Positions 3,071 to 28,507 of a DNA stretch of 64,000 nt are shown here, in pieces. The notes under the pieces are model-generated. The model had not been told where the DNA came from and made no database searches. It saw only the letters and a list, made by a program, of their open reading frames with translations. The position numbers and the translations under genes are program-made. Source of the stretch: Aeromicrobium sp. Root495 (GTDB taxonomy: Bacteria > Actinomycetota > Actinomycetes > Propionibacteriales > Nocardioidaceae); assembly GCF_001426755.1 (NCBI RefSeq), contig NZ_LMFJ01000001.1:103156-167155 (forward strand). Direction: 5' to 3'. Position 1 is the first letter of the stretch. Every line of letters starts with the position of its first letter.

Positions 3071-3829
3071 ATGCTGTCCGACGTTTCGAGCCCCGGAGCG
3101 GTCTTCGACGCGCTCGACGAGCACACCGTCCCGGTCATGGTGCTGTGCACCGTGGCGATGATCGGCAACTACATCTGGTTCATCTCGGCGTACCGGACCG
3201 CCAAGCGCGACCGGACCTACCCCATCCCGGTCTTCCTGCTCTTCTTCTGGTTCGCGCACGACTCTTCCTTCGTGCTGAAGTTCGACACGTGGTTCAACAC
3301 CTACGACCACTGGTTCCCCAAGCTCTTCTGGGCCCTCATCACGCTCACCGTCGTCTCCGAGATCATCTTCATAGCGCAGACGGTGAAGTACGGCAAGGAG
3401 GAGCTGGCCCCCCGGGTCACCGAGTGGCAGTGGCGGCTCGGACTCCTGGGCGGTTGCGCGGCGATGTTCGTCGCGTGGGCCTGGCTCAAGCAGTCCATGG
3501 ACGACCCGATCTACCTCGACATCTTCGCCCTGACGGTCCTGAGCTACCCCGGCGTGGCGATCATGACGCTCCTGCGCCGCCGGACGCGTCGCGGCATGTC
3601 CATGACGATGTGCGGCGGCTTCCTCATGATGACCGTCTTCTACTTCGGTGCGTCGTCGTTCCTCTTCGGACCCGACTTCCAGTCCACGACCTACTACCTC
3701 GTGGGCGGCGCCTCCCTGGCGATGGCCCTCGCCATGACGTGGCTGACGTGGCGCATGCCGGAGTACGTGCCGGAGGCGGGGCCCGACGCCGGCCGCGCGA
3801 CCGAGCCTGCCGTGGCGGGGCGGGTCTGA
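3071..3829 (+). CDS. Family A membrane protein, copy 1
   Basis: The 252-residue protein shows about seven hydrophobic segments. Landmarks: an N-terminal ALDEHTVP amphipathic stretch, WFAHDSSF at the start of the third segment, FDTWFNTYDHW in the loop or interface after it, a buried glutamate in VSEIIFIAQ, and MDDPIYLD later. The start at 3071 is preferred because AGGAG lies five bases upstream and because it aligns with the short N-termini of the paralogs; GTG 3041 and ATG 3056 would lie inside or right after the operator. The stop is one base before the ATG of family B copy 1, so A and B are cotranscribed. I recognise no described family; the conserved H, D, E and W residues suggest an active or cofactor site. 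This is inference. Confidence 0.82.
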   Translation: MLSDVSSPGAVFDALDEHTVPVMVLCTVAMIGNYIWFISAYRTAKRDRTYPIPVFLLFFWFAHDSSFVLKFDTWFNTYDHWFPKLFWALITLTVVSEIIFIAQTVKYGKEELAPRVTEWQWRLGLLGGCAAMFVAWAWLKQSMDDPIYLDIFALTVLSYPGVAIMTLLRRRTRRGMSMTMCGGFLMMTVFYFGASSFLFGPDFQSTTYYLVGGASLAMALAMTWLTWRMPEYVPEAGPDAGRATEPAVAGRV

Positions 3830-3830
3830 C

Positions 3831-4655
3831 ATGACGCTCACCGCAGAGACTCCCGTGCCGGTCGCGACGACCCGCCTGCGCTCGCGCACCCGCACGTCCC
3901 GCATCGTCCAGAAGGCCTGCATCTGGGCCGGCCCGGTGATGGGCGCGCTCTTCGTCCTCGGGTTCGTCGTGGCTGGGTTCTTCCCGCCGCCGTCGCCGGA
4001 CCAGAGCCCCGCCGAGGTGGCGGCGATGATCGACGCGGACCGCACGGCGATCCGCATCGGCATCGTCATCTGTCTCGCGTCGTGCACGCTGCTCATGCCG
4101 TTCTTCACCGCGTTCACCATCCAGATGCTGCGCATCGAGAGGTCGCGGCCGATCCTGGCCTACACGCAGCTGGCGCTCGGAGCCCTCGCCACGATCGAGT
4201 TCGTGATCCCCTACGTCTTCATGCTCGTGTCCACGTTCCGCGTCGGGCAGGACCCGGCCGTGACGCAGGCCCTGTTCGACATCAGCTGGTTCTTCTTCCT
4301 CGGCGTCATCAGCACGTTCGTGCTCCAGCTCGCGATCTTCGGCGTGGCCGTGCTCATCGACGCCCGCACCGAGCCGATCTTCCCGCGCTGGCTCGGCTAC
4401 CTGAACCTGTGGCTCTCGCTCATGTTCACGCCCGCGAGCTTCCTGGTCTTCTTCAAGACCGGCCCGCTCGCCTGGAACGGTGCGTTCGTGTGGTGGCTCC
4501 CCGTGACCGCGTTCCTGGTGTGGTTCTTCCCCAACTTCGTGTGCCTCCTGCGCGCGGTGGACCAGGACGGCGAGGAGCCGTTCGCCCTCGACGAGGACCT
4601 GCGCTCCGAGGTGGCCGAGCTGCGCCGCCTGGTCGAGGCCCTTCCCGCCCGCTGA
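3831..4655 (+). CDS. Family B membrane protein, copy 1
   Basis: This 274-residue protein has six or seven hydrophobic segments. The family pattern is clear: FFPPPSPDQSPAEVAAMI after the first membrane span, TAIRIGIVICLA, VGQDPAVTQALFDISWFFF, FPRWLGYLNLW and FFKTGPLAWNGAFVWWLP, followed by an acidic cytoplasmic tail (about 30 residues, charged, probably helical) that most paralogs lack. It is cotranscribed with family A copy 1 immediately upstream. No signal peptide cleavage site or known catalytic motif is visible, and I do not recognise the family. A role as partner subunit of the A protein is inferred only from pairing. Confidence 0.82.
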   Translation: MTLTAETPVPVATTRLRSRTRTSRIVQKACIWAGPVMGALFVLGFVVAGFFPPPSPDQSPAEVAAMIDADRTAIRIGIVICLASCTLLMPFFTAFTIQMLRIERSRPILAYTQLALGALATIEFVIPYVFMLVSTFRVGQDPAVTQALFDISWFFFLGVISTFVLQLAIFGVAVLIDARTEPIFPRWLGYLNLWLSLMFTPASFLVFFKTGPLAWNGAFVWWLPVTAFLVWFFPNFVCLLRAVDQDGEEPFALDEDLRSEVAELRRLVEALPAR

Positions 4656-4674
4656 CAAGTTGCGCGGTGAGTTA

Positions 4675-4713
4675 GCGTCCGTTCAGGCCTGCAAGCGGGG
4701 TCGAAACGGACGC
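4675..4713. terminator. Bidirectional stem-loop between convergent genes
   Basis: GCGTCCGTT at 4675-4683 pairs perfectly with AACGGACGC at 4705-4713. A second small inverted repeat (GGTCA/TGACC) follows at 4716-4730. It sits between the convergent family B gene and the TetR gene; there is no T-run, as usual in actinobacteria. Confidence 0.6.
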
Positions 4714-4736
4714 CAGGTCACCCCCTGACCGACGTA

Positions 4737-5360: not shown

Positions 5361-5364
5361 GCGC

Positions 5365-5667
5365 TCAGCCTGCCAGGTAGAACCCGGTGACGACGCAGAA
5401 GACCACGAGGCAGTAGGCCTCGATGATGGCCCGCAGCACCAGCGGAGCGTCCTTGAGCTCCATGAAGTAGAGCCCGATGAAGCGGATCTTGACGAACGCG
5501 ACGGCCAGGATGATGAGGCTCGCAGCGGTGTGGTTCTCGATGCCGCCGTGGTCGGTGCCGAGGGCCCAGGAGACCACGGTGGCCACGATGAGGAAGAGCC
5601 ACACGACGGTGGACGAGGACTTGAGCAGGTCGGCCGGACGGTCGGCCGAGACGGTGTGCACGGACAT
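5365..5667 (-). CDS. Cytochrome c oxidase subunit IV / NorF-like small membrane protein
   Basis: The 100-residue protein has three hydrophobic segments (residues about 20-40, 47-70 and 78-99). The pattern ASLIILAVAFVKIRFIGLYFMELKDAP and LVLRAIIEAYCLVVF is typical of the prokaryotic cytochrome c oxidase subunit IV / NorF family. ATG 5667 is chosen because it begins two bases after the stop of the subunit-III-like gene and gives the family's usual length. No heme-copper subunit I or II gene is present in the window, so its enzyme partner is unclear. Confidence 0.8.
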   Translation of the reverse strand: MSVHTVSADRPADLLKSSSTVVWLFLIVATVVSWALGTDHGGIENHTAASLIILAVAFVKIRFIGLYFMELKDAPLVLRAIIEAYCLVVFCVVTGFYLAG

Positions 5668-5669
5668 GG

Positions 5670-6281
5670 TCACCTCACCAGGAAGATCAGGGGGAACAGG
5701 ACGATCCAGAGCAGGTCGACCATGTGCCAGAAGCACGCGCCGCCCTCGAAGAAGGAGTACTGGTTCTTGGTCATCTCGGGCTTCTGGCTCAGCTTGTAGA
5801 GCACCACGAGGACGACCAGGCCGATGACCAGGTGGAACGCGTGCAGGCCGGTGAGCACGAAGTAGTACATGAAGAAGTCGCTCGTCTGCGGCGTGATGTC
5901 GTGCTGGATCTTCTCGGTGTACTCGAGGATCTTGATGGCCAGGAAGCCCGCGCCGCAGAGCCAGGCCGCGGCGATGAGCCGGGGCGCGAGGTGACGCTGC
6001 GTCGTCGACTGCACGGCGCGCATGGCCAGCACCACGAAGAGCGAGCTCACGAGCAGCAGGGCGGTGTTGATCGCACCGAAGTTCTGGTTGAGCTCGGCCT
6101 GGTCCCTCGCGAAGCCGTCCGGGTCGCCGATCCGCGACTGCAGGAACACGGAGAAGAAGACGGCGAAGACCGTCATGTCTCCGAAGATGAAGATCCAGGT
6201 CCCCTCCTCGCCGGGGATCCGCTTGACCTTCTTGGGTGCCTCCGTGTCGTCGGGCGGTGGTGCGGTTCCCAGGGACGCCAT
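5670..6281 (-). CDS. Heme-copper oxidase subunit III / NorE-like protein
   Basis: This 203-residue protein has five membrane spans. The family landmarks are GEEGTWIFIFGDMTVFAVFF in span 1, GAINTALLLVSS in span 2, YYFVLTGLHAFHLVIGL in span 4 and FWHMVDLLWIVLF in span 5. Such proteins are subunit III of aa3-type oxidases or NorE next to nitric oxide reductase. Here it heads an operon with the subunit-IV-like gene and a TetR regulator, divergent from a family B gene, and without any catalytic subunit. It may serve another membrane enzyme, perhaps the A/B proteins around it; that is speculation from position. Confidence 0.82.
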   Translation of the reverse strand: MASLGTAPPPDDTEAPKKVKRIPGEEGTWIFIFGDMTVFAVFFSVFLQSRIGDPDGFARDQAELNQNFGAINTALLLVSSLFVVLAMRAVQSTTQRHLAPRLIAAAWLCGAGFLAIKILEYTEKIQHDITPQTSDFFMYYFVLTGLHAFHLVIGLVVLVVLYKLSQKPEMTKNQYSFFEGGACFWHMVDLLWIVLFPLIFLVR

Positions 6282-6312
6282 TTTTCAGACCTTCTCTCTC
6301 ACAAGTATTAAA

Positions 6313-6326: not shown

Positions 6327-6397
6327 CTGATACTTTATGGCCCAGGTCACATCCACGGCAAGGTTTTCCTGCCACGAGTTCTCACAAAGGAGTCGCC

Positions 6398-7174
6398 ATG
6401 AGCGCGACCGTCAGTCGTTTCTCCGAGACGAGCCAGCGAGCGATCCTCTGGTGGGGCATCGGCCTCGCGGTCATCTACGCGCTCGCTCTGATCTTCCTGC
6501 TGCAGCAGGTCCCCACGAAGAACCCGGAGTGGAGCGCCCAGCAGGTGGCGGACTGGTACTCCGAGAACAACGACAAGATCAAGTGGGGCGCGGTCATCTC
6601 CGGCTGGACCGGCGCCTTCATGATGCCGATCCTCGCTGTCGTGGCCATCCAGATGGCCCGCGTCGAGACCGGCGGCGCCAAGATCTGGAGCGCCCTGTCG
6701 CTCGTGAGCGGTGCGCTCATGTCGATCTGGCTCATGCTGCCGCCCATCTTCTGGGGCACGGCCGCCTACACGCAGGACCGCGTGGACCCCGAGGTCACGA
6801 CCGTGATGCACGAGCTCGGCACGCTGACCCTCGTGACGACGGACCAGTACTACATCTTCCTCTGGATCGGCATCTCCGTGCTGTGCTTCCGCTCCGCGAC
6901 GGCCCTCGTGCCCAACAACCCGTTCCCGCGCTGGTGGGGCTACCTCTCGCTCTGGATCACCCTCATGTTCGAGGCCGGCGCGTTCGCCTTCATCCCGCGC
7001 ACGGGCCCGCTCGCCTGGGACGGACTCCTCGTCTTCTGGTCGCCGCTCTCGCTGTTCGGGGTCTGGATCTCCATCCAGAGCTGGCTCATCTTCCGCGCGC
7101 TGCGTGGGCAGGCCCAGGCCAAGCTCGACGGCACCGAGCCCGAGCTCGAGCCCTCGACCATCTCGGTCCTCTGA
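6398..7174 (+). CDS. Family B membrane protein, copy 2
   Basis: This is a 258-residue divergent member. The usual PPPSP box is replaced by VPTKNPEWSAQQVADWYSE, but VDPEVTTVMHELGTL, FPRWWGYLSLWITLMFEAGAF and PRTGPLAWDGLLVFWSP keep the family register, with about seven hydrophobic segments. The ATG start at 6398 has AAGGAG six bases upstream; upstream in-frame codons run through the promoter region. Nine bases separate it from the family A gene that follows, which is in turn fused by overlap to an FAD oxidoreductase gene, giving a B-A-flavoenzyme operon. Confidence 0.82.
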   Translation: MSATVSRFSETSQRAILWWGIGLAVIYALALIFLLQQVPTKNPEWSAQQVADWYSENNDKIKWGAVISGWTGAFMMPILAVVAIQMARVETGGAKIWSALSLVSGALMSIWLMLPPIFWGTAAYTQDRVDPEVTTVMHELGTLTLVTTDQYYIFLWIGISVLCFRSATALVPNNPFPRWWGYLSLWITLMFEAGAFAFIPRTGPLAWDGLLVFWSPLSLFGVWISIQSWLIFRALRGQAQAKLDGTEPELEPSTISVL

Positions 7175-7183
7175 CGTCGAGCC

Positions 7184-7921
7184 ATGTATGACCCGCAGAC
7201 GATCCTGAGCGCGATCGACGACCACCCTGTCCCGATCCTGCTGGGCTTCGGCCTGGCCATGGTGCTGCAGAACGTCGCGATGGTGACTGCCGTCGTGATG
7301 ACGCGGCGGGAGGGGTGGATCTCCATCCCCCTGCCGTGCACGTTCCTGTGGCTCGCCCACGACCTGAGCGTGGTGGCGCGGTTCGACACGTGGTTCAACA
7401 CCTACGACCACTGGTTCCTCAAGCTCTTCTGGCTGGGTCTCCTGAGCGCGTTCCTGCTCGAGCTCGTCTTCATGACGCAGGCCATGCGGGTGGGCCGCAA
7501 GGAGTACCTGCCCAACGGCTCGCAGGCCCAGTGGAACGCGCTCCTGTGGGGCGGTGCTGCACTCTTCGTGCTCTGCTGGGAGTACCAGACGACGGTCTGG
7601 GACGACCCGCTCCACCAGGCCTTGGCGTCGACGACGATGTACGTCATCCCGCTCGCCGTGGTTCCGCTCGTCCTGCGTCGGCGCTCGGCCGTGGCGCAGT
7701 CACCTGTCATCTACGCCTGCTTCGCCGGGATGGTCATCCTCTGGTGGGCGGTCACGATGGGCGCCTACGGCGAGGGCTTCAGGACGTGGCAGTACCTGGC
7801 GTCCGGCGTGGTCGCGTTCGGCACGCTCACCGGGCTCTCGGTCTGGATCCACCGGCTCCGCGCGGCCGGACCTCCACCGGAGCCTGACCTCGAACGCGTG
7901 CCGGCAGCGGTGCGGTCATGA
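7184..7921 (+). CDS. Family A membrane protein, copy 2
   Basis: The 245-residue protein begins MYDPQTILSAIDDHPVP and contains WLAHDLSVVARFDTWFNTYDHWFLKLFW, a buried glutamate in LELVFMTQ, and WDDPLHQ in place of DDPIYL. About seven membrane spans are visible. Its last codons overlap the start of the CrtI-like FAD oxidoreductase (ATGA at 7918-7921). This strongly suggests that the two proteins are made in fixed ratio and work together, for example as membrane anchor, quinone-facing electron acceptor or second enzymatic step for the flavoprotein. Function is not known. Confidence 0.82.
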   Translation: MYDPQTILSAIDDHPVPILLGFGLAMVLQNVAMVTAVVMTRREGWISIPLPCTFLWLAHDLSVVARFDTWFNTYDHWFLKLFWLGLLSAFLLELVFMTQAMRVGRKEYLPNGSQAQWNALLWGGAALFVLCWEYQTTVWDDPLHQALASTTMYVIPLAVVPLVLRRRSAVAQSPVIYACFAGMVILWWAVTMGAYGEGFRTWQYLASGVVAFGTLTGLSVWIHRLRAAGPPPEPDLERVPAAVRS

Positions 7922-9501
7922 ACGAGGTCTTCGACTACGTGGTGGCGGGCGGCGGGCACAACGGGCTCGCCGCCGGCGCCACGCTCGCCCAGGCGGGGCG
8001 ATCGGTGTGCGTGCTGGAGCGGCTCGAGATCCCGGGTGGACTCTCCGCCAGCCACGCGTACCTCCCCGAGGCGCCCGCGCACCTCCTGAGCCTCGGCGCG
8101 ATGGACGACATGTTCATGGCGCAGACCCCGCTCGCCCGTGAGATGGGGCTGGCCCGGCACGGGTACGACACCATCCCGCTCGACCATCCGTACGGCTGGG
8201 TGGACGAGGAGGGCGAGACCCTCCTGCTCTGGCACGACGTCCGCAGGGCCGTCCGCGAGATCCAGCACTTCTCGCGGCACGACGCCCGCGTCTACGAGGA
8301 GCTGCAGGGACCCATGAACTGGGTCATGGACCTCGTCGACGTGCTGTTCGTCCAGCACCCCTCGGCCTGGGGGCCCAAGGACTTCGTGAAGTACCTCCTC
8401 AAGCACCGCCCCGACAGGGCGACGCGGCGGTTCCTCGGCAGCCTGGCCACGGACAACGCCTTCGAGTGGATCTCCGAGACCTTCGAGTCCGACGCGATGC
8501 GCGGACTGTGGGCGTACTGGACGAGCATGATCGGGCCGTCCGACGCGATCGGCAGCGGCGCCTACGTGCTGGGGTTCGCCGGTGTCCACCGCGGCCCCGG
8601 CGTGCTGCGTCCGCGTGGCGGGATGAGCAACCTCGTCGGAGCGATGCGCGGGGTCCTCGAGACGAACGGCGGTGAGCTCCGCCTGGACGCGCCGGTGGAG
8701 CGGATCGTCGTCGAGGACGGGCGCGCGGTCGCCGTGCGGCTGGCCGACGGGTCCACCGTCTCCGCCCGCCACGGCGTGCTGTCCAACCTGGCTCCGCAGA
8801 CCACCTTCGGATCGCTCGTGCCGCCCGAGGCCCTCACCCGGACCGAGCGCAACCGGGTGGCGATGGTGCCCTCCAGCTCGATCAACGTGGCCGCGTTCAA
8901 GATCGACCTCGCGGCCTCCGGTCGGGTGGGGTTCCCCGCCGCCGAGCGCCGCCGGGCGCTGCGTGACGACGCCGACGTCCGCAAGGCCACGCTGATGACC
9001 GGCACGCTCGAGGACCACGTGGCGCAGATGAACGCCCTGCGGGTGGGTCTCAACGTGGAGGACCCGCCGGTCTACATGGCCGTGCTCTCCGCCGCCGACC
9101 CGTCGATCGCGCCCGAGGGCGGGGACGTCCTGTACCTGCACTCCAACGTGCCGCTGCGCCCTGACGGAGGCTGGGACACGGCCAAGGCCGCCTACGACAA
9201 GCAGGTCTTCGCCTCGGCCCAGAGGTTCCTCGACGTGGAGGGAGAGGTGGGCCGCGTGGTCACCACGCCGGCCGACTTCGAGGCCCGGTACGCCGCTCCC
9301 TCGGGTGCGTTCTTCCACGTCGACATGCTGGTCAACCGGTTGGGGAAGCTCCGCCCGGCCAAGGGCTTCGGCGGTTACGAGACGCCCGTCGAGGGTCTGT
9401 ACCTCGCCGGCGCGGCCGCCCACCCCAGCGGCGGGGTCACCGGCTGGCCCGGACGACTGGCCGCGCAGCACGCCATGAGCCGCGAGTCGACAGGCTGCTG
9501 A
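7918..9501 (+). CDS. CrtI/PYROXD2-like FAD-dependent oxidoreductase 1
   Basis: The 527-residue protein has an N-terminal dinucleotide-binding fold, YVVAGGGHNGLAAGATLAQAG (residues about 7-27), followed by an acidic VLER end for the ribose. The C-terminal FAD closure is GLYLAGAAAHPSGGVTGWPGR. This arrangement is that of phytoene desaturase, retinol saturase and PYROXD2-like enzymes, which act on hydrophobic, often isoprenoid substrates at membranes. It is paralogous to the gene at 10930; both share ASHAYLPEAP and LSLGAMDDMFM. It is translationally coupled to family A copy 2. The substrate is unknown; desaturation, saturation or isomerisation of a polyene or lipid are all possible. Confidence 0.85.
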   Translation: MNEVFDYVVAGGGHNGLAAGATLAQAGRSVCVLERLEIPGGLSASHAYLPEAPAHLLSLGAMDDMFMAQTPLAREMGLARHGYDTIPLDHPYGWVDEEGETLLLWHDVRRAVREIQHFSRHDARVYEELQGPMNWVMDLVDVLFVQHPSAWGPKDFVKYLLKHRPDRATRRFLGSLATDNAFEWISETFESDAMRGLWAYWTSMIGPSDAIGSGAYVLGFAGVHRGPGVLRPRGGMSNLVGAMRGVLETNGGELRLDAPVERIVVEDGRAVAVRLADGSTVSARHGVLSNLAPQTTFGSLVPPEALTRTERNRVAMVPSSSINVAAFKIDLAASGRVGFPAAERRRALRDDADVRKATLMTGTLEDHVAQMNALRVGLNVEDPPVYMAVLSAADPSIAPEGGDVLYLHSNVPLRPDGGWDTAKAAYDKQVFASAQRFLDVEGEVGRVVTTPADFEARYAAPSGAFFHVDMLVNRLGKLRPAKGFGGYETPVEGLYLAGAAAHPSGGVTGWPGRLAAQHAMSRESTGC

Positions 9502-10106: not shown

Positions 10107-10811
10107 TCAGGCAGCACGCCCCTCGCTCTCGATCTGGCGCGTGAGGCTGAGGTGCACCTGGTAGCTGAGCGTGCCCATCCAGATCGCGAACGCCGCGAGC
10201 GGGACGTAGATGCCGATGACGCCGTTCCAGGCGAAGGCGCCCTCCTTGAAGAACAGGACCATGCCGGCGGGGAGGATCAGCACGGCGGCCCACGCGGTGA
10301 GGTAGCCGAGCCAGCGGGGCAGGGCCGGCTCCGGGCGACGGTCGATGAAGATCGCGACGACGATGCAGACCATCTGCACGATGAGCGACCAGATGACCGT
10401 CACGAACAGGATCCAGCCGACGTCGTGGAGCGCCTCGGTGACCTCTGCCGACCGGTCGTCGAAACGGAAGGCGGCCGCCATCCAGACGCCGATCGGCGTG
10501 ATGAACTCGAGCGAGAGCAGTCCGCACGAGACGAGCTGCACGGCGGCGAGCACCTTGGCCCCGTCGATGTGCCAGAGCACGTGGGCGATGGCGCCGGCCC
10601 ACGTGACGAGGAGCGCCGAGGCCGCCATGACGATGACGAGCCCGATGCGGATGGCGGTGGTGTCGCCGGCGTAGAGGTCGCGGATCTCCTCGGCGCTGGC
10701 GCTCGGGGCCGACGGCGGGAACCAGCCCATCACGAAGATGAACGTCGCGAACCAGATGAGGACCATCGCGGGCCCGGTCCAGATGAGGTAGCGGTTGACG
10801 CGGGCTTCCAT
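10107..10811 (-). CDS. Family B membrane protein, copy 3
   Basis: This 234-residue protein has about seven membrane spans. Landmarks: WFPPSAPSASAEEIRDLYAGDTTAIRIG, FRFDDRSAEVTEALHDVGW, LPRWLGYLTAWAA, PAGMVLFFKEGAFAWNGVIGIYVP. ATG 10811 is preceded by GAGGAAGG, and the N-terminus MEARVNRY matches an internal MEARVQRV of copy 4, its nearest relative in the window. It is transcribed away from FAD oxidoreductase 2, and both starts flank the operator at 10881. Function unknown. Confidence 0.82.
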   Translation of the reverse strand: MEARVNRYLIWTGPAMVLIWFATFIFVMGWFPPSAPSASAEEIRDLYAGDTTAIRIGLVIVMAASALLVTWAGAIAHVLWHIDGAKVLAAVQLVSCGLLSLEFITPIGVWMAAAFRFDDRSAEVTEALHDVGWILFVTVIWSLIVQMVCIVVAIFIDRRPEPALPRWLGYLTAWAAVLILPAGMVLFFKEGAFAWNGVIGIYVPLAAFAIWMGTLSYQVHLSLTRQIESEGRAA

Positions 10812-10929: not shown

Positions 10930-12519
10930 ATGAGCCCCGCCGCACGCACGCCCGCTGCCTCCGCCACGTACGACTACGTGGTGGTCGGTGGTGGGCACAA
11001 CGGATTGTCGGCCGCGTGCACGCTCGCGGAGGCTGGATCCTCCGTGGTGGTGCTGGAGCGTCGGCCCATCGTCGGAGGGCTCTCGGCGAGCCACGCCTAC
11101 CTCCCCGAGGCGCCCGAGCACGTCCTGAGCCTGGGGGCCATGGACGACATGTTCATGTCGTGCACGTCGATCATCGACGACCTCGACCTGCGGGCCCACG
11201 GTCTGCGGACCAGCCCCGTCGAGGCGCCCTACGGCTGGCTCGGCCCCGAGGGCGAGACCCTCCTGCTCTTCTCCGACCTGGGCCGCACGCTCGATGAGGT
11301 GCGCCGGTTCTCGCCGGCCGACGCCCGGGCCTACGCCGAGCTGCAGCCCGCCCTGGCCTGGATCTTCGACGCCCTGCGGACGGTCATGCCGCGCCAGCTC
11401 TCGGACCTGCCCAAGGGGGAGATCGGGAAGCTGCTGCTGCGCCTGGCGCCCAGCAAGGCTGTCCGTCGTCGGCTCGGGCAGATCATGTCGAGCAACCTCG
11501 TCGACCTCATGGCCGACGTCTTCGAGTCCGACCAGATGCGCTCGCTCGCCACCTACTGGGGAAGCATGATCGGCCCCATCGACGCCGACGGGGGAGGGTT
11601 CTACTGCGTGGGCCTGGCCGCGGTCCACCAGGCGCCGGGCGTCCAGCGCCCCCGGGGCGGGATGGGCACGATCATGGGTGCGCTCGCCTCCAAGGCACGC
11701 TCCCACGGCGCCGACGTCCGGGTGGACGCCGACGTCGTGAACGTCGTGGTCTCGGGCAACCGGGCCACCGGCGTGCGCCTGGCCGACGGCACCGCGATCA
11801 GCGCTCGACGCGGCGTGCTCGCCGCGGTGGCGCCCCAGCTCATGTACGGAGGCCTCCTCGAGGAGGGCGTCGTCGACTCGGCGACCCGGGCCAAGGTGGC
11901 CACCATGCCCGCGAGCGGCAACAACATGGCCACGTTCAAGATCGACCTCGCCCTCTCGGGCCGGGCGCGGTTCGCCAAGGCCGACCGTCCTGACGGCTTC
12001 GACGTCCGGCGCACCTCGCTCATGACCGGCACGTTCGACGAGCAGCTCCAGCAGCTGGCCCTCGTCCGGCGCGGTGAGTCCCTGCCCTCCCCGCCGGTCT
12101 ACATGGCGGTGCTGTCGGCGTCCGACGACTCGCTCGCCCCGCCGGGGCAGGAGGTGGTCTACCTCGCCTCCAACGTGCCGGCCCAGCCGGCCGGCGGGTG
12201 GGACCTGGCCAAGCCCGCGCTCTCCAAGGCCGTGATGTCGAGCGTCACGCAGCACCTCGACGGACTGGAGACCGAGATCGGCCGGGTGGAGACGAGCCCG
12301 GGCGACCTCATGGAGCTCTGGAACGTCCCCAACGGCTCGTACTTCCACGTGGACATGACGCCGCTGCGCCTGCTCGGCAACCGTCCGGCGCCCGGGCTCG
12401 GAGGATACGCCGGCCCCATCGAGGGCTACCTGCACGCGGGCGCGGGCTCCCACCCCGGCGGCGGCGTGAGCGGCTGGCCGGGACGCCTCGCGGCGCAGAC
12501 CGCCCTGCGGGGGCGGTGA
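10930..12519 (+). CDS. CrtI/PYROXD2-like FAD-dependent oxidoreductase 2
   Basis: The 529-residue paralog of the protein at 7918 has YVVVGGGHNGLSAACTLAEAG near residue 18, SASHAYLPEAPEHVLSLGAMDDMFMS, and the C-terminal FAD motif GYLHAGAGSHPGGGVSGWPGR. ATG 10930 is five bases after GGAAGGA. Four bases separate its stop from family A copy 3, so the flavoenzyme and A protein are again paired but in reversed order relative to the first pair. Membrane-associated oxidation or isomerisation of a hydrophobic compound is likely; the substrate is not deducible. Confidence 0.85.
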   Translation: MSPAARTPAASATYDYVVVGGGHNGLSAACTLAEAGSSVVVLERRPIVGGLSASHAYLPEAPEHVLSLGAMDDMFMSCTSIIDDLDLRAHGLRTSPVEAPYGWLGPEGETLLLFSDLGRTLDEVRRFSPADARAYAELQPALAWIFDALRTVMPRQLSDLPKGEIGKLLLRLAPSKAVRRRLGQIMSSNLVDLMADVFESDQMRSLATYWGSMIGPIDADGGGFYCVGLAAVHQAPGVQRPRGGMGTIMGALASKARSHGADVRVDADVVNVVVSGNRATGVRLADGTAISARRGVLAAVAPQLMYGGLLEEGVVDSATRAKVATMPASGNNMATFKIDLALSGRARFAKADRPDGFDVRRTSLMTGTFDEQLQQLALVRRGESLPSPPVYMAVLSASDDSLAPPGQEVVYLASNVPAQPAGGWDLAKPALSKAVMSSVTQHLDGLETEIGRVETSPGDLMELWNVPNGSYFHVDMTPLRLLGNRPAPGLGGYAGPIEGYLHAGAGSHPGGGVSGWPGRLAAQTALRGR

Positions 12520-12523: not shown

Positions 12524-13255
12524 GTGTACGACCCGGCCGACGTCATCGCGCGCATCAACGAGCCGTACGTCCCGCTGCTCGTCTTCACGGCCGTCGCCTG
12601 GATCGCCGGGTTCGTGCAGATCGTGCAGGGTTTCCGGGGTGGCCTTCGCGACGGCGTCCCTGCGGCGCCCATCGGCATGACGGCGTTCCTCCTGGCCCAC
12701 GACGGCTCGTTCGCGCTCCGCTACGACTACTGGGTCAACGACGTCGGGACCTGGTACTTCACGCTGTTCTGGGTGGGCATGGTGATCTCCGTGGTCATCG
12801 AGCTGGCCATGGTGCGCCAGTTCCTGGTCCTGGGCCAGCCGCTCGTGGCACCGCACCTGCCTCGGTGGGTCTTCGTCGGCACCTACGTGCTGCTCCAGGT
12901 CTTCGCGTTCGCGGGCGTCTGGTGGCTCCAGTCGGTGCTCGACGACCCGCTCTACCTGGTGAGCCTCGCCGGGACCCAGGTCGTCGCCGTCGTCTTTCTC
13001 GTCCCCTGGATCCTCAACCGCGGCAACGCTCTGGGCCAGTCGCGTGCCTTCGCGTGGGCCACCGTGATCGGTCCCGGCGGGCTGGCCCTGGGGCTCTTCC
13101 CGGCCCTGTCGCCCGAGCTCTTCGACGACGCCCGCTACTGGTTCCTCGTGGCCTCGCTCGTCACCCTCTCGATCACGTACCTCGCGCTCCTCGAGCACCA
13201 CCTCCGCGCCGACGAGCGGGACGCACAGTGGTCGCGGGTCGACGGGGGCGTGTGA
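12524..13255 (+). CDS. Family A membrane protein, copy 3
   Basis: The 243-residue protein begins at GTG with MYDPADVIARINEPYVP. It retains LLAHDGSFALRYDYW, but the second half of the signature is changed to VNDVGTW, so the DHW pair found in copies 1, 2 and 4 is lost. VIELAMVRQ and LDDPLYLVSLAG are retained. It follows FAD oxidoreductase 2 by four bases. The divergence may mark altered specificity or a non-catalytic copy. About seven membrane spans are visible. Confidence 0.8.
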   Translation: MYDPADVIARINEPYVPLLVFTAVAWIAGFVQIVQGFRGGLRDGVPAAPIGMTAFLLAHDGSFALRYDYWVNDVGTWYFTLFWVGMVISVVIELAMVRQFLVLGQPLVAPHLPRWVFVGTYVLLQVFAFAGVWWLQSVLDDPLYLVSLAGTQVVAVVFLVPWILNRGNALGQSRAFAWATVIGPGGLALGLFPALSPELFDDARYWFLVASLVTLSITYLALLEHHLRADERDAQWSRVDGGV

Positions 13256-13292: not shown

Positions 13293-13313
13293 ATGTTGAA
13301 TGACATTCAACAT
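13293..13313. promoter_or_regulatory. 21-base perfect palindrome (ATGTTGAATG-A-CATTCAACAT)
   Basis: Ten-base arms match perfectly around a single A, twelve bases before the phosphotransferase-like gene. It is the most symmetric operator in the window. The binding protein is unknown; the TetR at 14546, convergent with this gene, is a candidate. Confidence 0.65.
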
Positions 13314-13324: not shown

Positions 13325-14500
13325 ATGACGATGAACGCGAAGCTGAAGCTGGCCGGAAGTGCCCTCACCGTGGGAGCGGCGACGCTCCGTGACCGGGTCA
13401 GCCCGCCGACCCCGCGGACGGCTTCCGACATCCCGGCGAACGGTGTCTCCCTCAACAGGGAGTGGCTCACGGCCGTCCTGTGCGCGGACGTGCCCGGTGC
13501 CGAGGTGACCTCGTGGACCAGTCCCGGAGGGTCCAGCGGCACGTCCGAGCGCGCCGCGCTCCGCGTCGAGTACAACGCGGCCGGCCAGGCAGCAGGACTG
13601 CCCACCATCCTCTACACGAAGAGCACCAGCTCCTTCAGCCAGCGGCTGCTCCTCGGTGGTGCGGACGTGCTGCACGGCGAGACGCACTTCTACATGGACT
13701 ACCGACCCGACCTGAAGATGGAGGCGCCGTCCGGATACTGGGGCGGAGCAGACCGTCGGACCGGTCGCAGCCTCGTGATCATGGATGACATCGCCGTGTC
13801 GAAGGGCGCCCGGTTCATCGACGCGACGGAGCCCCTCACGCGCGCGCAGGTGGAGGACGTGCTGGCCAACATGGCCGTCTACCACGGTGCCTGGTGGGAC
13901 TCCCCGGCCCTGGCCAAGCTCAAGACGGCCAACGACCACTTCCACAACGTGGCCGACATGATCGACATGGGCGGTCGCTGTGCGGTGGGGATGACGCGGA
14001 GCGAGGACGTGCACCCGCCCGAGCTGCTGGGCCAAGCCGCGCGCCTGTGGGAGGGGACGGAGAAGAGCCTGCAGCTCCTGACCGACGCCACGCCCACGCT
14101 GCTGCACGGCGACAGCCACGTGGGACAGATGTACGTGACCGACGACGGCAGGATGGGGATCACCGACTGGCAGGCGACGCTGCGCGGCAGCTGGACCTAC
14201 GACTTCGCGTACTTCGTGAGCTCGGCGTGCGAGCCCGAGGACCGACGGGCCTGGGAGGACGACCTGCTGAAGGACTACCTCGAGAAGCTCGAGGCCGCCG
14301 GCGGTCAGGCACCGACGTTCGAGGAGGCCAAGCTGGCCTACCGTCGCTCGCTCTTCTACCCGTACTCCGCGTGGGCGTTCACGATCGGCCGCGCCTGGTA
14401 CCAGCCGCAGATGCAGACCGTGCCCGTGTGCCGCGCCATCCTGCACAGGATGTCGCACGCCATCCACGAGAACGACTCGTTCGAGGCCCTCGGCATCTGA
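13325..14500 (+). CDS. Aminoglycoside phosphotransferase/choline-kinase-fold protein
   Basis: This 391-residue soluble protein has the kinase-fold catalytic loop LLHGDSHVGQMYV near residue 260, where the usual terminal N of HGDxxxxN is Q, and the metal-binding GITDWQ near residue 279. The pattern fits the APH / ecdysteroid-kinase-like group (phosphorylation of small hydroxylated compounds) rather than an antibiotic-resistance enzyme. The gene stands alone behind a 21-base palindrome and ends at a stem-loop. Phosphorylation of a hydroxylated lipid or terpenoid is possible but only inferred from the neighbourhood. Confidence 0.78.
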   Translation: MTMNAKLKLAGSALTVGAATLRDRVSPPTPRTASDIPANGVSLNREWLTAVLCADVPGAEVTSWTSPGGSSGTSERAALRVEYNAAGQAAGLPTILYTKSTSSFSQRLLLGGADVLHGETHFYMDYRPDLKMEAPSGYWGGADRRTGRSLVIMDDIAVSKGARFIDATEPLTRAQVEDVLANMAVYHGAWWDSPALAKLKTANDHFHNVADMIDMGGRCAVGMTRSEDVHPPELLGQAARLWEGTEKSLQLLTDATPTLLHGDSHVGQMYVTDDGRMGITDWQATLRGSWTYDFAYFVSSACEPEDRRAWEDDLLKDYLEKLEAAGGQAPTFEEAKLAYRRSLFYPYSAWAFTIGRAWYQPQMQTVPVCRAILHRMSHAIHENDSFEALGI

Positions 14501-16688: not shown

Positions 16689-17438
16689 TCAGACGAGCGC
16701 AGGCTCGTCGTCCGACAGCGCGGCGACCTGGGTCGCCTTGATGCGGTTGATGGCCTGGAACGTGGTGACGCTCATCGTGATCATCCAGCCGAAGAACACC
16801 GCGAACGGCATCCAGAAGGCGCCGATGCCGTCGTAGGCGAAGAGCCCGGTGTGGAAGAAAGCGATGAGACCGGCGGGGAAGATGAGGATGGCGCACCAGA
16901 AGTTGAGGTAGGCCACCCAGCGCGGGTAGAGGGTCGGGACGTTGTGGTCCTTGAGGATCGCGACGCCGATGAGCGCCATGAACACGGCGAACGGGGGCCA
17001 CGTGAACAGGAAGTCGAACCAGACCCAGTCGTTCATGATCTGCATGATCTCCGGGTCGAGCGTCTCCGGGCGGAAGGCGATGACGGCCCACGTCATGGGG
17101 ATGAGGATGAAGAAGACGTAGCCGCCGCCGTTGAGGGCGATCGAGCAGTACGTGAGGATCGGGTAGCCGCGCTCCATCTTGCGCATGATGATCGTGATCG
17201 CCATGGACCAGGTGGCCCAGAAGCCCCAGGCCATGCACTGGATGAGGCAGCCGAGGCGGATCTCGTTCTTGCGGTCGATGAACTTCTGCGCGAGCTCGTC
17301 CGCGGAGAGGTCGGGCGACGGCGGCGGGATGAAGTGCATCAGGAATCCCTGGGCGATCACCATCGCGACGATCAGGACGATGCCCGACCATACGGCCGCC
17401 TTCATGAGGCCGGAGTCGATCTCTGTCTTCAGTGCCAT
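16689..17438 (-). CDS. Family B membrane protein, copy 6
   Basis: The 249-residue protein heads the minus-strand operon of three family B genes. It has HFIPPPSPDLSADELAQKFIDRKNEIRLG, FRPETLDPEIMQIMNDWVW, YPRWVAYLNFWCAILIFPAG and FFHTGLFAYDGIGAFWMP. The start ATG 17438 gives the short N-terminus of the family; the in-frame extension upstream would run into the operator at 17486. It is divergent from the TetR gene at 17572. Confidence 0.82.
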   Translation of the reverse strand: MALKTEIDSGLMKAAVWSGIVLIVAMVIAQGFLMHFIPPPSPDLSADELAQKFIDRKNEIRLGCLIQCMAWGFWATWSMAITIIMRKMERGYPILTYCSIALNGGGYVFFILIPMTWAVIAFRPETLDPEIMQIMNDWVWFDFLFTWPPFAVFMALIGVAILKDHNVPTLYPRWVAYLNFWCAILIFPAGLIAFFHTGLFAYDGIGAFWMPFAVFFGWMITMSVTTFQAINRIKATQVAALSDDEPALV

Positions 17439-23289: not shown

Positions 23290-23305
23290 GTCAGTGAACA
23301 CTGAC
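23290..23305. promoter_or_regulatory. Perfect palindromic operator (GTCAGTG-AA-CACTGAC)
   Basis: The seven-base arms and AA centre share the ten-base core AGTGAACACT with the operator at 3035. It is followed by a CRP-like sequence at 23317 (TGTGA-CGCGGG-TCTCA) and precedes family B copy 7. Confidence 0.65.
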
Positions 23306-23364: not shown

Positions 23365-24144
23365 ATGACGACCTTGCAGTCCGAGCCCCTGACGCCGTCG
23401 CAGTACGCCCACGAGAAGCTCCAGCTGGGCCTGTGGGCCTGCGGCATCGGCTTCGGCGTGCTCTTCTTCGTGGGACTGGCCGTCTTCTCGGGCTTCATCC
23501 CGCCGCCGTCGCCCGAGCTCACCGGCGAGCAGCTGCTGGCCAAGTACGACAACCTCAACATGGTGAAGCTCGGCATCCTCACGGGCCTGCTCGGCGCTAC
23601 GCTGCTCATCCCGTGGTCGGCGATGGTCTCGATGCAGATCGCGCGGATGGAGGAGGGCCGCCGCTTCCCGATGTGGTCGATCACCTCGTTCATCGCCGGA
23701 GCGGTGAACGCCGTCGCGTTCATCCTGCCCTTCATCTTCTGGGCCGGCGCCTACTACCGCGCCGATCGCTCGCCGGAGCTCGTGCAGCTCATCAGCGACA
23801 TGACGTGGCTCGAGTTCCTGCTCTTCTTCCCCGCCTTCAGCATGCAGCTCTTCTGCCTTGCGATGGCCGGTCTGACCCAGCGTCGCGGTCCGCAGGTCTT
23901 CCCGCGCTGGTTCCTCTACCTCAACCTCTGGATGGCCATCGTCGGCTCCACCGGCATGCTGTGCCTCTTCTTCACGTCCGGGCCGTTCGCCTGGAACGGG
24001 GCGATCGGGTTCTACCTCCCCGTCGGCGCGTACGTGCCGTTCCTGATCATCACGTGGGTCGTGTTCTACCGGGTCATCCGGGCCGAGAAGCTCTGCTACG
24101 CCACCGAGGAGTCACGCCGCGGGTCGCTCGTCGGCGCGGTCTGA
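23365..24144 (+). CDS. Family B membrane protein, copy 7
   Basis: The 259-residue protein is the most typical member. It has GFIPPPSPELTGEQLLAKYDN, YYRADRSPELVQLISDMTWLEF, FPRWFLYLNLWMAIVGSTG and FFTSGPFAWNGAIGFYLP, with about seven membrane spans and a basic tail. It stands alone behind the 23290 palindrome, with a TetR gene (24188) of the family B-linked type directly downstream. No A gene is adjacent. Confidence 0.82.
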   Translation: MTTLQSEPLTPSQYAHEKLQLGLWACGIGFGVLFFVGLAVFSGFIPPPSPELTGEQLLAKYDNLNMVKLGILTGLLGATLLIPWSAMVSMQIARMEEGRRFPMWSITSFIAGAVNAVAFILPFIFWAGAYYRADRSPELVQLISDMTWLEFLLFFPAFSMQLFCLAMAGLTQRRGPQVFPRWFLYLNLWMAIVGSTGMLCLFFTSGPFAWNGAIGFYLPVGAYVPFLIITWVVFYRVIRAEKLCYATEESRRGSLVGAV

Positions 24145-24180: not shown

Positions 24181-24187
24181 GTCGGAC

Positions 24188-25058: not shown

Positions 25059-26984
25059 GTGTCCCACCCCACGCCCGACGTCCGTGACCCTGCGCTGCGT
25101 GAGGCTCTCGACGAGGCCAACATCCCCACCCTCGTGCTCGTCCTGGCCCACCTCACCGGCGACGACCGCTGGCTCCAGGACCCGTACCGTCCGAGGCCCG
25201 GCAAGGTGCTCGACGACAACGACAGCGGCAGCCTCCCCAAGGACGTGCAGCGCGAGATCCGCGACGCGGCCCACGACGCGATCCTGCGGTCGGAGAAGTC
25301 GGGGCGGACGTTCCCCGAGATCTCGGCCGAGCAGGTCGCGACCATGCTGGGCGTCGCGCTCGTCGAGGACGTCCCCGCCGAGTACGGCCCGCTCCTCGCG
25401 GAGGAGCTGGGCGTGGTCTCGCGCGACGTGGAGATCACCGGTCCCGCCAAGGACGACCTCTCCGTGGTCATCATCGGCGCCGGCCTCTCCGGGCTGAGCC
25501 TCGCCTTCAAGCTCGAGGCCGCCGGGATCCGCTACCGCATCCTGGAGAAGAACCCCGAGATCGGCGGCACCTGGCTGGAGAACATCTACCCCGGCTGCGG
25601 CGTCGACACCCCGAGCCACCTCTACTCGTTCTCCTTCGCGCCCAACACCGAGTGGTCGCGCTTCTTCGCCAAGCGCCCCGAGGTCTTCAGCTACCTCGAG
25701 CGACTCACGGCGGAGCACGGCGTCCGCGACGGCATCGAGTTCGGCGTCGAGGTGGAGAGCGCCGCGTACGACACCGCCTCGCGCACCTGGACCGTCCGCG
25801 CCCGGCACGCCTCCGGCGAGGTCGAGGTCATCGAGTCGCCCGTCCTCGTCAGCGCCGTGGGCATGGTCAACCGGCCGTCCGTCCCGCCCATCGAGGGCAT
25901 CGACGCTTTCGACGGCCCCTCGATGCACACCGCGGAGTGGGACCCCTCGGTCCAGATCGAGGGCAAGGTCGTCGGCGTCATCGGCACGGGAGCCAGCGCC
26001 ATGCAGCTCGTCCCGTCCATCGCCGGCGAGGCCGAGAAGGTCGTGGTCTTCCAGCGCTCGAAGCAGTGGGCCATCCCGCACCCGAACTACCACCGCGACG
26101 TGCCCGAGGCGGTCCGCTACCTCATGCGCCGCGTGCCCACCTACATCCGCTGGTACCGACTCCGGTCCTTCTGGAACTTCAGCGACCGTCTGCACGCCTC
26201 GCTCCAGGTGGACCCCACGTGGCCGCACCCCGAGCGCTCCATCAACGCCCAGAACGAGCGTCACCGCGTCTTCCTCACGAAGTACATCAAGGAGCAGCTC
26301 GCGGACCGCCCCGACCTCTGGGACGCCTGCATCCCGGACTACCCGCCCTACGGCAAGCGCCCGCTGCTCGACAACCGGTGGTTCGAGACCATCCAGCGCG
26401 ACGACGTCGAGCTCGTGACCGACGGCGTGAAGCGTGTGGAGGGCCACAAGGTCGAGACGGTCGGCGGCGAGGTCTTCGACGTCGACGTCCTGGTGCTCGC
26501 CACCGGCTTCAAGACGCTGCAGTTCCTGTGGCCCATGGAGATCCGCGGCGCGTCGGGACAGACGCTCGCCGAGCAGTGGGGCTTCCACGACGCGCGGGCC
26601 TACCTCGGCGTGACGGTGCCGGACTTCCCGAACTTCTTCATCCTGAACGGCCCCAACACCAACGCGGGCCACGGCGGCAGCGCGATCATCGCCGACGAGT
26701 TCCAGGTCCGCTACGTCATGCAGGCCCTGGAGCACCTCGCCTCGGGCGACGTCTCGACGATCGAGGTGCGGCGCGAGGTCTTCGAGTCCTACAACGAGGA
26801 GCTCGACGAGGCCCTGAGCCAGGCCATCTGGTCGCACGAGGGCATGACGACGTACTACCGGAACGAGGCGGGGCGCGTCGTCGTGAGCGGTCCGTGGACC
26901 TACCTCGACTGGTGGAACCGCATGAAGCATCTCGACCCGGCCGAGTACGTCCTGCAGCCCGCATCGGAGAAGGCCTCGGCGTGA
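25059..26984 (+). CDS. Baeyer-Villiger-type flavin monooxygenase (HAPMO-like)
   Basis: The 641-residue protein has an N-terminal extension of about 135 residues, then the FAD Rossmann motif VIIGAGLSGLS (residues 138-148), EIGGTWLENIYPGCGVD, the type I BVMO fingerprint FDGPSMHTAEW (FxGxxxHxxxW, about residue 284) and the NADPH motif GVIGTGASAMQ. Such enzymes insert oxygen next to a ketone; the extended N-terminus is typical of 4-hydroxyacetophenone and some steroid or terpenoid monooxygenases. GTG with GGAGG upstream is the start. Its stop overlaps the GTG of family A copy 4 (GTGA), fixing the pair translationally. Confidence 0.87.
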   Translation: MSHPTPDVRDPALREALDEANIPTLVLVLAHLTGDDRWLQDPYRPRPGKVLDDNDSGSLPKDVQREIRDAAHDAILRSEKSGRTFPEISAEQVATMLGVALVEDVPAEYGPLLAEELGVVSRDVEITGPAKDDLSVVIIGAGLSGLSLAFKLEAAGIRYRILEKNPEIGGTWLENIYPGCGVDTPSHLYSFSFAPNTEWSRFFAKRPEVFSYLERLTAEHGVRDGIEFGVEVESAAYDTASRTWTVRARHASGEVEVIESPVLVSAVGMVNRPSVPPIEGIDAFDGPSMHTAEWDPSVQIEGKVVGVIGTGASAMQLVPSIAGEAEKVVVFQRSKQWAIPHPNYHRDVPEAVRYLMRRVPTYIRWYRLRSFWNFSDRLHASLQVDPTWPHPERSINAQNERHRVFLTKYIKEQLADRPDLWDACIPDYPPYGKRPLLDNRWFETIQRDDVELVTDGVKRVEGHKVETVGGEVFDVDVLVLATGFKTLQFLWPMEIRGASGQTLAEQWGFHDARAYLGVTVPDFPNFFILNGPNTNAGHGGSAIIADEFQVRYVMQALEHLASGDVSTIEVRREVFESYNEELDEALSQAIWSHEGMTTYYRNEAGRVVVSGPWTYLDWWNRMKHLDPAEYVLQPASEKASA

Positions 26985-27727
26985 CGTCGCCCGGGTCCTA
27001 CGACCCCGTGGCGGTGCTCGGGTCCATCGACGACCACCGGAACTGGGTGCTGGCCTGCTTCGCGGTGGCCGCAGTGTTCACGTTCTCGTACTTCATCGAG
27101 TCGTTCAGGCTCGTGGCCCGTCACCACGTCTACACCGCACCCCTCGCCGCCGTCGGCTGGTTCGCGATGCACGACCTGGGCTTCGTGCTGCAGTACGACG
27201 ACTGGTTCAACACCTACGACCACTGGTGGGTCAAGGCCTGGTGGTTCGCGCTCATCGCCACCTCGGTGATCGAGCTCGTCTTCGTCGCGATCTTCATCCG
27301 GTACGGGTGGAGCGAGCTGCTCCCGCAGGTCTCGCACCGCACGTTCGCGCTGCTGAGCATCGCGATGATGCTCGGGATCGGGGCGGTCTGGGCGGTCACG
27401 AAGTCAGTCCTGGGGGACGAGCTCTACCTCGTGTCCTTCCCCGTCACGGCGTTCTGGGCGCTGCCCTTCAGCACGGCACTCGCCCTGCGACGGGGGAGCG
27501 GCCTCGGGCAGTCCCCGCGGCAGGAGGTCTTCGTGGTGTTCATCGTCGTGGCCTTCCAGGCTGCGCTGTGGCCGCTCGACGAGGTCTTCCGCTCGGTGCC
27601 GTTCATGGCCTTCACGGTCACAGCGGTCTGCTGGGGCGTGGCCAACGTGTGGCTGCTCCGGGTCCTTCCCGACGGCGAGTCCCCTCGAGACACCGAGGGC
27701 GTCTCCCGCGCCCCGGCCAAGGTCTGA
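26981..27727 (+). CDS. Family A membrane protein, copy 4
   Basis: The 248-residue protein begins within the stop of the flavin monooxygenase gene. It has SIDDHRNWV, WFAMHDLGFVLQYDDWFNTYDHWWVKAWW, VIELVFVAIF and LGDELYLVSFPV. The full signature with the DHW pair is present, as in copies 1 and 2, but MHD replaces AHD. Tight coupling to a monooxygenase suggests that the A protein supplies or takes up a membrane-bound substrate, or anchors the enzyme; there is no direct evidence. Confidence 0.8.
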   Translation: MTSPGSYDPVAVLGSIDDHRNWVLACFAVAAVFTFSYFIESFRLVARHHVYTAPLAAVGWFAMHDLGFVLQYDDWFNTYDHWWVKAWWFALIATSVIELVFVAIFIRYGWSELLPQVSHRTFALLSIAMMLGIGAVWAVTKSVLGDELYLVSFPVTAFWALPFSTALALRRGSGLGQSPRQEVFVVFIVVAFQAALWPLDEVFRSVPFMAFTVTAVCWGVANVWLLRVLPDGESPRDTEGVSRAPAKV

Positions 27728-27736
27728 GGAGGCCAG

Positions 27737-28507
27737 GTGTACGACGAGATCGCGGTCCTTCAGGTCATCGACGACAAGGCGGTGCTGGCCTGCGCCTTCG
27801 GGGCGCTCGCCTTCCTCGCCAACTGGACGTACTTCTACGCCTGCGCACGGGCGGCCCGCCGCGACCAGTGCTCGCCCATGGCCCTGTGGGCCACGACGAT
27901 CTTCATCGCGCACGACGGCAGCTTCCTGATCCATGCCCGGCACTGGTTCACCGACTACGAGGGTGTCGCGGGGGCCTGGATGCTGCCGCTCTTCTGGTGC
28001 GGGCTGATCGTCACGTTCGGCTTCGAGCTCGTCTTCCTCGGTCAGACCATCCGGTACGGACGGAACGAGTACGCGCCGCGCCTCAGCCAGCGGCAGTGGC
28101 TCGGGTACGTCCTGGCGGCTCTCGCGGTCGGGATGGTGTTCTGGTCGGTGACCAAGACCTACCTCGACGACCCGATCTACCTCATGACGTTCCTCGTCAC
28201 CTACGCCATGTGCGCCCCAGCCACCATCCAGGCCCTGGCGCGACGTGGGGACTCGTCCGGTCTGGACCCGCTGCTCACCTGGACGTACCTTGCGGTCGGC
28301 GTCTTCTTCGTCGCCCTCACGGTCGGCGTGATCGGCAGCGAGCCCGCGGGTGAGCCGTTCCGCCAGGGTTGGTTCCTCGTGGGGAGCCTTCTGGTGTTCG
28401 CCCTGGCCGGCGCCCTCATCGTCCTGCAACGGGTGCTGCCGCCGCCCGGCCGCGAGTTCCGCGGCGTCGACGGCAGCGTGCACCGCGCCCCGCTCGTCGT
28501 CTCGTGA
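27737..28507 (+). CDS. Family A membrane protein, copy 5
   Basis: The 256-residue protein starts at GTG nine bases after GAGGAGG. It shows IFIAHDGSFLIHARHWFTDYEGV, so the motif keeps HDGSF but lacks WFNTYDHW, and FELVFLGQTIRYG and YLDDPIYLMTF are retained. It forms a tandem A-A pair with copy 4, which has the full motif, possibly as a heteromeric partner. It is followed by a small membrane protein gene in the same operon. Confidence 0.8.
   Translation: MYDEIAVLQVIDDKAVLACAFGALAFLANWTYFYACARAARRDQCSPMALWATTIFIAHDGSFLIHARHWFTDYEGVAGAWMLPLFWCGLIVTFGFELVFLGQTIRYGRNEYAPRLSQRQWLGYVLAALAVGMVFWSVTKTYLDDPIYLMTFLVTYAMCAPATIQALARRGDSSGLDPLLTWTYLAVGVFFVALTVGVIGSEPAGEPFRQGWFLVGSLLVFALAGALIVLQRVLPPPGREFRGVDGSVHRAPLVVS

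Follow-up and report, generated by a model that had tools for sequence, protein, structure and literature searches.

Gene families at the locus

The DNA analyzed here (the window) is a 64,000-nucleotide stretch of the genome of Aeromicrobium sp. Root495 (contig NZ_LMFJ01000001.1, positions 103,156 to 167,155) that carries five genes of one family of membrane proteins (A1 to A5) and seven genes of another (B1 to B7). These twelve reading frames had been described as an expanded two-family system in an earlier note made from the sequence alone; all were present with their starts as described, and alignments separated the five A genes from the seven B genes (Table 1). No relation between the families was found by profile-profile comparison (hhalign, 0.4%). 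Searching the whole 3.58-Mb genome (E ≤ 0.001) with an A profile of 68 sequences and a B profile of 65 yielded five A and seven B genes, every one inside the window. Of 67 homologues, 63 entered the family A alignment; those excluded were P0001 (the A1 protein), P0016, P0038, and P0067. The family B alignment used 58 homologues of the 120 listed among 460. The motifs that had been proposed were over-generalised: HD was kept in 5/5 window A proteins and PRW in 7/7 window B proteins, but WFNTYDHW and DDPxYL were each found in 3/5, and PPPSPxxSxxE occurred exactly in 3/7. The invariant core of family A consists of His63-Asp64 and Glu97 (A1 numbering).

Family A is related to Pyr4-like transmembrane terpene cyclases

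Family A, which the earlier note could not place, was tied by profile comparison to the Pyr4-like transmembrane terpene cyclases. A cyclase profile was built from bacterial PF25129 proteins in genomes of the phylum and class, plus close homologues, and matched the A profile over 184 columns (hhalign 98.2%, E 3.9e-14). The match persisted when the subfamily of A1, the one that Pfam recognises, was left out (38 A sequences, 97.2%, E 3e-11), and a control comparison of family B with the cyclase profile gave 0.7%. A1 itself passed the Pfam model PF25129 (30.3 bits, cut-off 27), and 3 of the 68 A relatives matched this model at E 0.01.

A tree of 61 rows was calculated from 37 of the 68 A sequences, 21 cyclase relatives, and three sequences of one further family (L063-L066); L052 (identical to L051), L057 and L058 (partial or weak), and L065 (a near copy of L063) were left out of the joint alignment. 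The cyclase relatives formed one side of a branch with full support in the Shimodaira-Hasegawa-like approximate likelihood ratio test (SH-aLRT), and the other side held A together with the three further sequences, which were nested beside part of A (support 87). The tree thus does not establish A without these three rows as a single clade, and its finer order is unsure, given a warning of long branches. The five window A genes fell in five separate places. Family A is best described as a sister clade of the Pyr4-like cyclases, and not as a member.

Active-site columns were compared between 68 A sequences and 21 cyclase relatives, with three MAFFT modes in agreement. The acid in the second transmembrane helix (TM2) is Asp in 68/68 A sequences versus Glu in 21/21 cyclase relatives, and the TM3 acid is Glu in 68/68 versus Asp in 19/21 (Asn in the remaining 2); an Asp in the loop before TM5 is common to both (67/68 and 20/21). 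Residues of the bacterial cyclase DmtA1, which stands outside the alignment, were mapped to these columns by motif spacing (W-x3-Y, N-x2-WE, D-x2-Y), and the TM2 acid would correspond to E60 and the TM3 acid to D94 on this basis. According to the accessible part of PMC6173783, E60 of DmtA1 is essential and D94 nearly so, D94 is missing from the epoxide-protonating XiaE/XiaH, D214N retains part of the activity, W29, Y33, and W59 matter, and Y33F is inactive. Family A therefore appears to keep acids, in exchanged form, where the cyclases protonate a double bond, and to have lost other residues that DmtA1 needs. In the L063-L066 family the exchanged acids are kept as well, and its three aligned rows carry the TM2 Asn (3/3) and mostly the TM7 Asp (2/3); this family is possibly intermediate between the A and cyclase clades.

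Family B recurs beside COX3-like and COX4-like genes

Family B stays unplaced, as the earlier note had it. None of the seven window genes passed a Pfam cut-off, and no NCBIfam model was over its cut-off for the five tried. Weak matches to PF14329 (DUF4386) were obtained for 2 of 65 B relatives (best E 0.0011), and the seven window B genes scanned singly gave none up to E 10. No His is invariant in B (at most 28/65 in any column), and a profile comparison of B with COX3 shows no relation (0.4%).

A COX3-like and a COX4-like gene, which had been missed earlier, lie next to B2. COX3 and COX4 are cofactor-free subunits that normally sit on COX1. On contig 1, near 1.0 Mb, lie the only COX1 of the genome and its one other COX3, and COX1 is about 0.89 Mb from the window pair; the pair thus lacks the adjacent COX1 of a haem-copper oxidase operon. 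At least one B gene was found beside COX3 and COX4 in 15/15 genomes with strong B hits in two genome samples, own genome included (strong being E < 1e-30, a line set after the tables were seen). At weak B hits, COX3 stood beside B in 0/6 loci (0/2 from the 13 weak g9 genomes and 0/4 weak phylum hits). Nineteen plasmid records had B hits, and in 10 of the 12 that were opened B lay beside COX3-like/COX4-like genes; in one of the other two, the pair was 2.6 kb off on the opposite strand, and in the other, from Streptomyces, it was absent from the fetched stretch. Plasmid hosts besides this Streptomyces were Diaphorobacter, Rhodococcus, Pseudonocardia, Sphingobium, Novosphingobium, Azoarcus, and Mycobacterium. 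Around the 12 plasmid loci no COX1 is annotated, in a gene table that is incomplete, and most opened B loci had catabolic rather than oxidase genes around them.

Five sampled genomes of another family (f7; L071-L074, L081-L085, L087, L088, L090, L091) carry B, often as a tandem B-B-COX3-COX4, and gave no A match. On a plasmid of Streptomyces sp. NBC_00080 (L104), a B gene without the pair lies directly 3′ of a mycofactocin operon (mftA to mftF, with mftG).

Co-occurrence of the two families and age of the paralogues

Co-occurrence of the two families was supported in both genome samples. In the order sample, A was found in 3/293 genomes and B in 21/293; in the phylum sample, A was found in 3/296 (a fourth match is a PF25129 cyclase) and B in 12/296. 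All A genomes carried B (3/3 in each sample), as against 18/290 and 9/293 of the A-less genomes, giving Fisher P values of 3e-4 and 5e-5, or 4e-3 and 1e-3 with the own genome excluded (relatedness ignored throughout). Four of five further named A genomes also hold B: Nocardia miyunensis (9 genes), Nocardia terrae (2), Mycolicibacterium sp. CBMA 234 (20), and Actinomycetospora sp. TBRC 11914 (4). The two families share one locus in Mycolicibacterium, Actinomycetospora, and Diaphorobacter; no B was found within 10 kb of the A gene in the two Nocardia, and B was absent from the fetched flanks of three of seven named A loci (L018, L019, L024). B has the wider distribution of the two and is often present in genomes that lack A. 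Among the same-genus genomes listed, A was found in 0/20 others, so the island looks acquired.

The expansion in Mycolicibacterium sp. CBMA 234 (G791, contig C13; L022) is larger than that of the window: 17 of its 20 B genes cluster in some 132 kb of a single contig, where two A genes are found as well.

Two other islands, G007 (in Nocardioides) and G230, have much gene content in common with that of the window. Window paralogues are 27.9-33.5% identical to each other in family A and 26.8-38.7% in family B (one pair 55.8%), whereas in G007 each has a counterpart at 53-79% identity, and these twelve counterparts all lie at different positions. Close counterparts of A1, A4, B1, and B6 are missing from G230 (34-40%), where the best match for B4 is the counterpart of B3. 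The B2 counterparts in both islands are collinear with COX3/COX4. Since counterparts are more alike than paralogues, the multiplication is old, and a recent local multiplication is not supported. The paralogues have each been retained on their own, which is what different steps would lead one to expect.

Gene content of the island

The island reaches far beyond position 28,507, where the earlier description had ended. Genes for WS/DGAT, MaoC, and a CoA ligase also lie among or beyond the A and B genes (Pfam), and the island totals two CoA ligases and five acyl-CoA dehydrogenases. The 64 kb are interpreted as an island for the breakdown of a hydrophobic compound (MCE importer, cytochrome P450, CoA ligases, beta-oxidation), and the relatives of CrtO, RPE65, and PtlE hint at a terpenoid as candidate substrate.

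Table 1 Features of the window (AF2, AlphaFold2 model; pLDDT, predicted local distance difference test; BVMO, Baeyer-Villiger monooxygenase; FMO, flavin monooxygenase; SDR, short-chain dehydrogenase/reductase; ECH, enoyl-CoA hydratase; ALDH, aldehyde dehydrogenase)
Feature	Position	Strand	Remarks and evidence
Perfect palindrome before A1	3035..3054		Probable TetR operator; sequence
A1	3071..3829	+	Pyr4-like sister-clade membrane protein; D64 (TM2), E97 (TM3), D145; Pfam PF25129; AF2
B1	3831..4655	+	Directly 3′ of A1; no Pfam/NCBIfam family over cut-off; alignment
COX4-like small subunit	5365..5667	-	PF03626, E 7e-14
COX3-like orphan subunit	5670..6281	-	PF00510, 51.1 bits (cut-off 23.8); recurring partner of B
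B2	6398..7174	+	Adjoins COX3/COX4 pair (divergent here; collinear in G007, G230); alignment
A2	7184..7921	+	4-base overlap with FAD1; both other islands have counterparts (76-78%); alignment
FAD1, CrtI/CrtO-like flavin oxidoreductase	7918..9501	+	Pfam PF01593; best NCBIfam CrtO, 3.5e-63, far below cut-off
B3	10107..10811	-	Counterparts 77-79%; alignment
FAD2, CrtI/CrtO-like flavin oxidoreductase	10930..12519	+	Pfam, NCBIfam
A3	12524..13255	+	Directly 3′ of FAD2; counterparts 76-77%; alignment
EcKL/APH-like kinase	13325..14500	+	PF02958, PF01636
B4	15203..15958	-	Member with predicted structure, AF2 pLDDT 91.6
B5	15955..16674	-	No Pfam family; alignment
B6	16689..17438	-	No Pfam family over cut-off; alignment
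B7	23365..24144	+	Counterparts 75-78%; alignment
BVMO/FMO-like flavin monooxygenase	25059..26984	+	Pfam; best NCBIfam PtlE, 2e-42, below cut-off
A4	26981..27727	+	4-base overlap with the BVMO-like gene; G007 counterpart 56%, G230 without a close one; alignment
A5	27737..28507	+	Tandem with A4; counterparts 53-74%; alignment
Carotenoid/lignostilbene-oxygenase-like (RPE65 family)	30617..32095	-	PF03055, 2e-87; counterparts 82-85%
Rest of island	33612..63999		Thiolase, SDR, ECH, acyl-CoA dehydrogenases, MCE importer, P450, ferredoxin reductase, ALDH, CoA ligase, ABC ATPase; Pfam

Separate regulators had been noticed earlier, and seven TetR genes were indeed found among the A and B genes. Besides the palindrome before A1, perfect palindromes at 13293-13313 (before the EcKL-like gene) and 23290-23305 (before B7) are probable TetR operators. 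A near copy of the first lies 5′ of the A1 counterpart in Nocardioides Root240, and none was found in two Nocardia loci; the other two had no copies before the counterparts. EcKL/APH kinase-like genes lie directly 3′ of A genes twice in Diaphorobacter (L013, 18505-19560 and 21558-22625). In Pseudonocardia, Azoarcus, and N. resinovorum, phosphotransferase genes are found no more than about 7 kb from B, and the window, Diaphorobacter, and Azoarcus each have a gene for a tyrosine or histidine phosphatase at most 15 kb from the kinase.

Proposed function and alternatives

The reading put forward here, at a probability of roughly 0.4, is that the A proteins are sister-clade membrane proton-transfer enzymes, that B, COX3, and COX4 form a cofactor-free platform, and that both serve the breakdown of a lipophilic, possibly terpenoid compound. 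The MCE system would import a hydrophobic, perhaps isoprenoid compound, which the P450, BVMO-like, CrtO-like, and RPE65-like enzymes would oxidise. Each A protein would act on one lipid-dissolved intermediate and protonate one of its C=C bonds, leading to isomerisation or cyclisation; the putative proton donor is Asp64 in TM2, assisted by His63, and Glu97 (TM3) would be the second acid. B with the COX3-like and COX4-like proteins is predicted to hold intermediates for the flavin enzymes of the island, and CoA ligases, acyl-CoA dehydrogenases, hydratases, and thiolase would complete the breakdown by beta-oxidation. The assignment of A as an isomerase or cyclase is moderately supported, by homology and the invariant acids. 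The weakest step is the platform role of B, which is suggested by gene order, the cofactor-free nature of COX3/COX4, and the lack of any invariant His in this family.

A number of observations weigh against this reading. Four of the five window A genes (A2-A5) miss PF25129. The TM7 Asp (D214 of DmtA1) is found in 0/68 A sequences versus 21/21 cyclase relatives, the residue before the TM2 acid is His in 68/68 versus Trp in 21/21, the TM2 Asn is found in 0/68, and the TM1 Tyr is loosely kept in A (Tyr 23/68, Phe 30/68); with these residues changed or lost, the chemistry may differ from that of the cyclases. No prenyltransferase or prenyl-diphosphate synthase, as would be expected in a bacterial Pyr4-type meroterpenoid cluster, was found among the 39 non-A/B, non-regulator frames scanned. 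On the side of B, contact with COX3/COX4 is a prediction from gene linkage, B2 is divergent from the window pair, many B copies lack the pair, and the AF2 model of B4 gave no clear match among solved structures. Finally, the fifth named A genome, a Pseudomonadales metagenome-assembled genome (MAG), has no B; it accounts for one of the three A loci without B.

The earlier note had suggested a modular membrane enzyme or transporter system, and of these the enzyme fits A better than the transporter, with B undecided. The A proteins could be SWEET/PQ-loop/KDEL-receptor-fold transporters or receptors that move island intermediates across or along the membrane, and the predicted fold of A (A1 AF2 model, pLDDT 94.2) does resemble SWEET and KDEL-receptor structures. 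This is quite unlikely, however, given the profile match between A and the cyclases (E 4e-14) and the fact that the kept residues are acids at the catalytic positions of the cyclases, whereas the sole match of A to PDB profiles up to E 1 is the insignificant one to the SemiSWEET 4x5m (E 0.24). The cyclases may share a SWEET-like fold themselves, so the fold does not decide.

For B, the main rival is an alternative accessory module of a respiratory terminal oxidase, in which B-COX3-COX4, much as NorE/NorF do for nitric oxide reductase, serves the oxidase and couples the flavin enzymes of catabolic islands to respiration. It would agree with the usual seat of COX3/COX4 on COX1, of which this genome has one, far away, and with the company that B keeps: in Diaphorobacter and Actinomycetospora a CrtO-like flavoprotein gene stands immediately 5′ of B, in Novosphingobium resinovorum flavoprotein genes are found no more than about 7 kb away, and the pair-less Streptomyces B follows a mycofactocin operon. 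The lack of profile kinship between B and COX3, the mostly catabolic B loci, and the twelve plasmid flanks without annotated COX1 (again from an incomplete gene table) make this rival doubtful.

If instead the island made a terpenoid, the A proteins would be ordinary meroterpenoid cyclases. The CrtO-like, BVMO-like (best NCBIfam PtlE), and P450 genes do resemble terpenoid tailoring enzymes, and the bacterial Pyr4-like cyclases named in the accessible part of PMC13307353 are biosynthetic; an MCE importer, two CoA ligases, five acyl-CoA dehydrogenases, ECH, MaoC, and thiolase, and the want of a prenyl-chain-forming or prenyl-transferring gene among the frames scanned, render this improbable. Very improbable is a chance clustering of A and B as unrelated passengers in this genome. 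The many A-less genomes with B, the three A loci without B, and the wholly B-less MAG would fit it, but all A genomes of both samples have B (Fisher values as above, uncorrected for relatedness), four of five named A genomes hold 2 to 20 B genes, and three genera have both in one locus.

A bolder form of the proton-transfer and platform reading would see a second, catabolic branch of the Pyr4 superfamily, marked by the reciprocal Glu/Asp exchange and a His-Asp dyad, whose five different enzymes act in series with flavin oxidases docked on a novel B-COX3-COX4 complex and dismantle terpenoid lipids in the membrane. This is unlikely as a whole.

Implications and comparison with known systems

In the accessible part of PMC13307353, a survey kept 264 of 1107 candidates by requiring terpenoid-biosynthesis genes nearby. 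Family A, near which no such gene was found here, would likely be dropped by this filter. As an acid-swapped sister clade, A would offer a natural mutant series for the mechanism of Pyr4-like cyclases. In Actinomycetota, and on plasmids of alpha- and betaproteobacteria, the linkage of B, COX3, and COX4 suggests that catabolic islands encode a membrane complex not yet described, which would account for puzzling orphan annotations as "cytochrome c oxidase subunit 3".

The Pyr4-like cyclases (Pyr4, XiaE/XiaH, DmtA1, ZigF) resemble A in length (about 230-260 residues), in seven predicted membrane helices, in 184 alignable columns, in acids at TM2, TM3, and the TM4-TM5 loop, and in an RRxxRGxS stretch. 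Unlike them, A has Asp for Glu in TM2, Glu for Asp in TM3, and His for the preceding Trp, and has lost the TM7 Asp, TM6 Lys, and TM2 Asn; its setting also differs, with five paralogues in a catabolic island and no prenyltransferase found among the 39 frames. SWEET/PQ-loop proteins and the KDEL receptor may share the predicted fold of A, without significant sequence similarity to it, and DUF4386 (PF14329) is weakly matched by two B relatives and by none of the window B proteins.

The window pair is akin to NorE/NorF, accessory subunits of nitric oxide reductase. Like these and other orphan COX3/COX4 subunits, the pair lies away from the COX1 of the genome; what sets it apart is its linkage to B and, in most cases, to genes of catabolism. 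The Mce4-linked islands for sterol breakdown in actinobacteria have, like the window, MCE/Mce4_CUP1 proteins, P450, CoA ligases, and beta-oxidation genes, and to this set the window adds A, B, CrtO-like, and RPE65-like genes.

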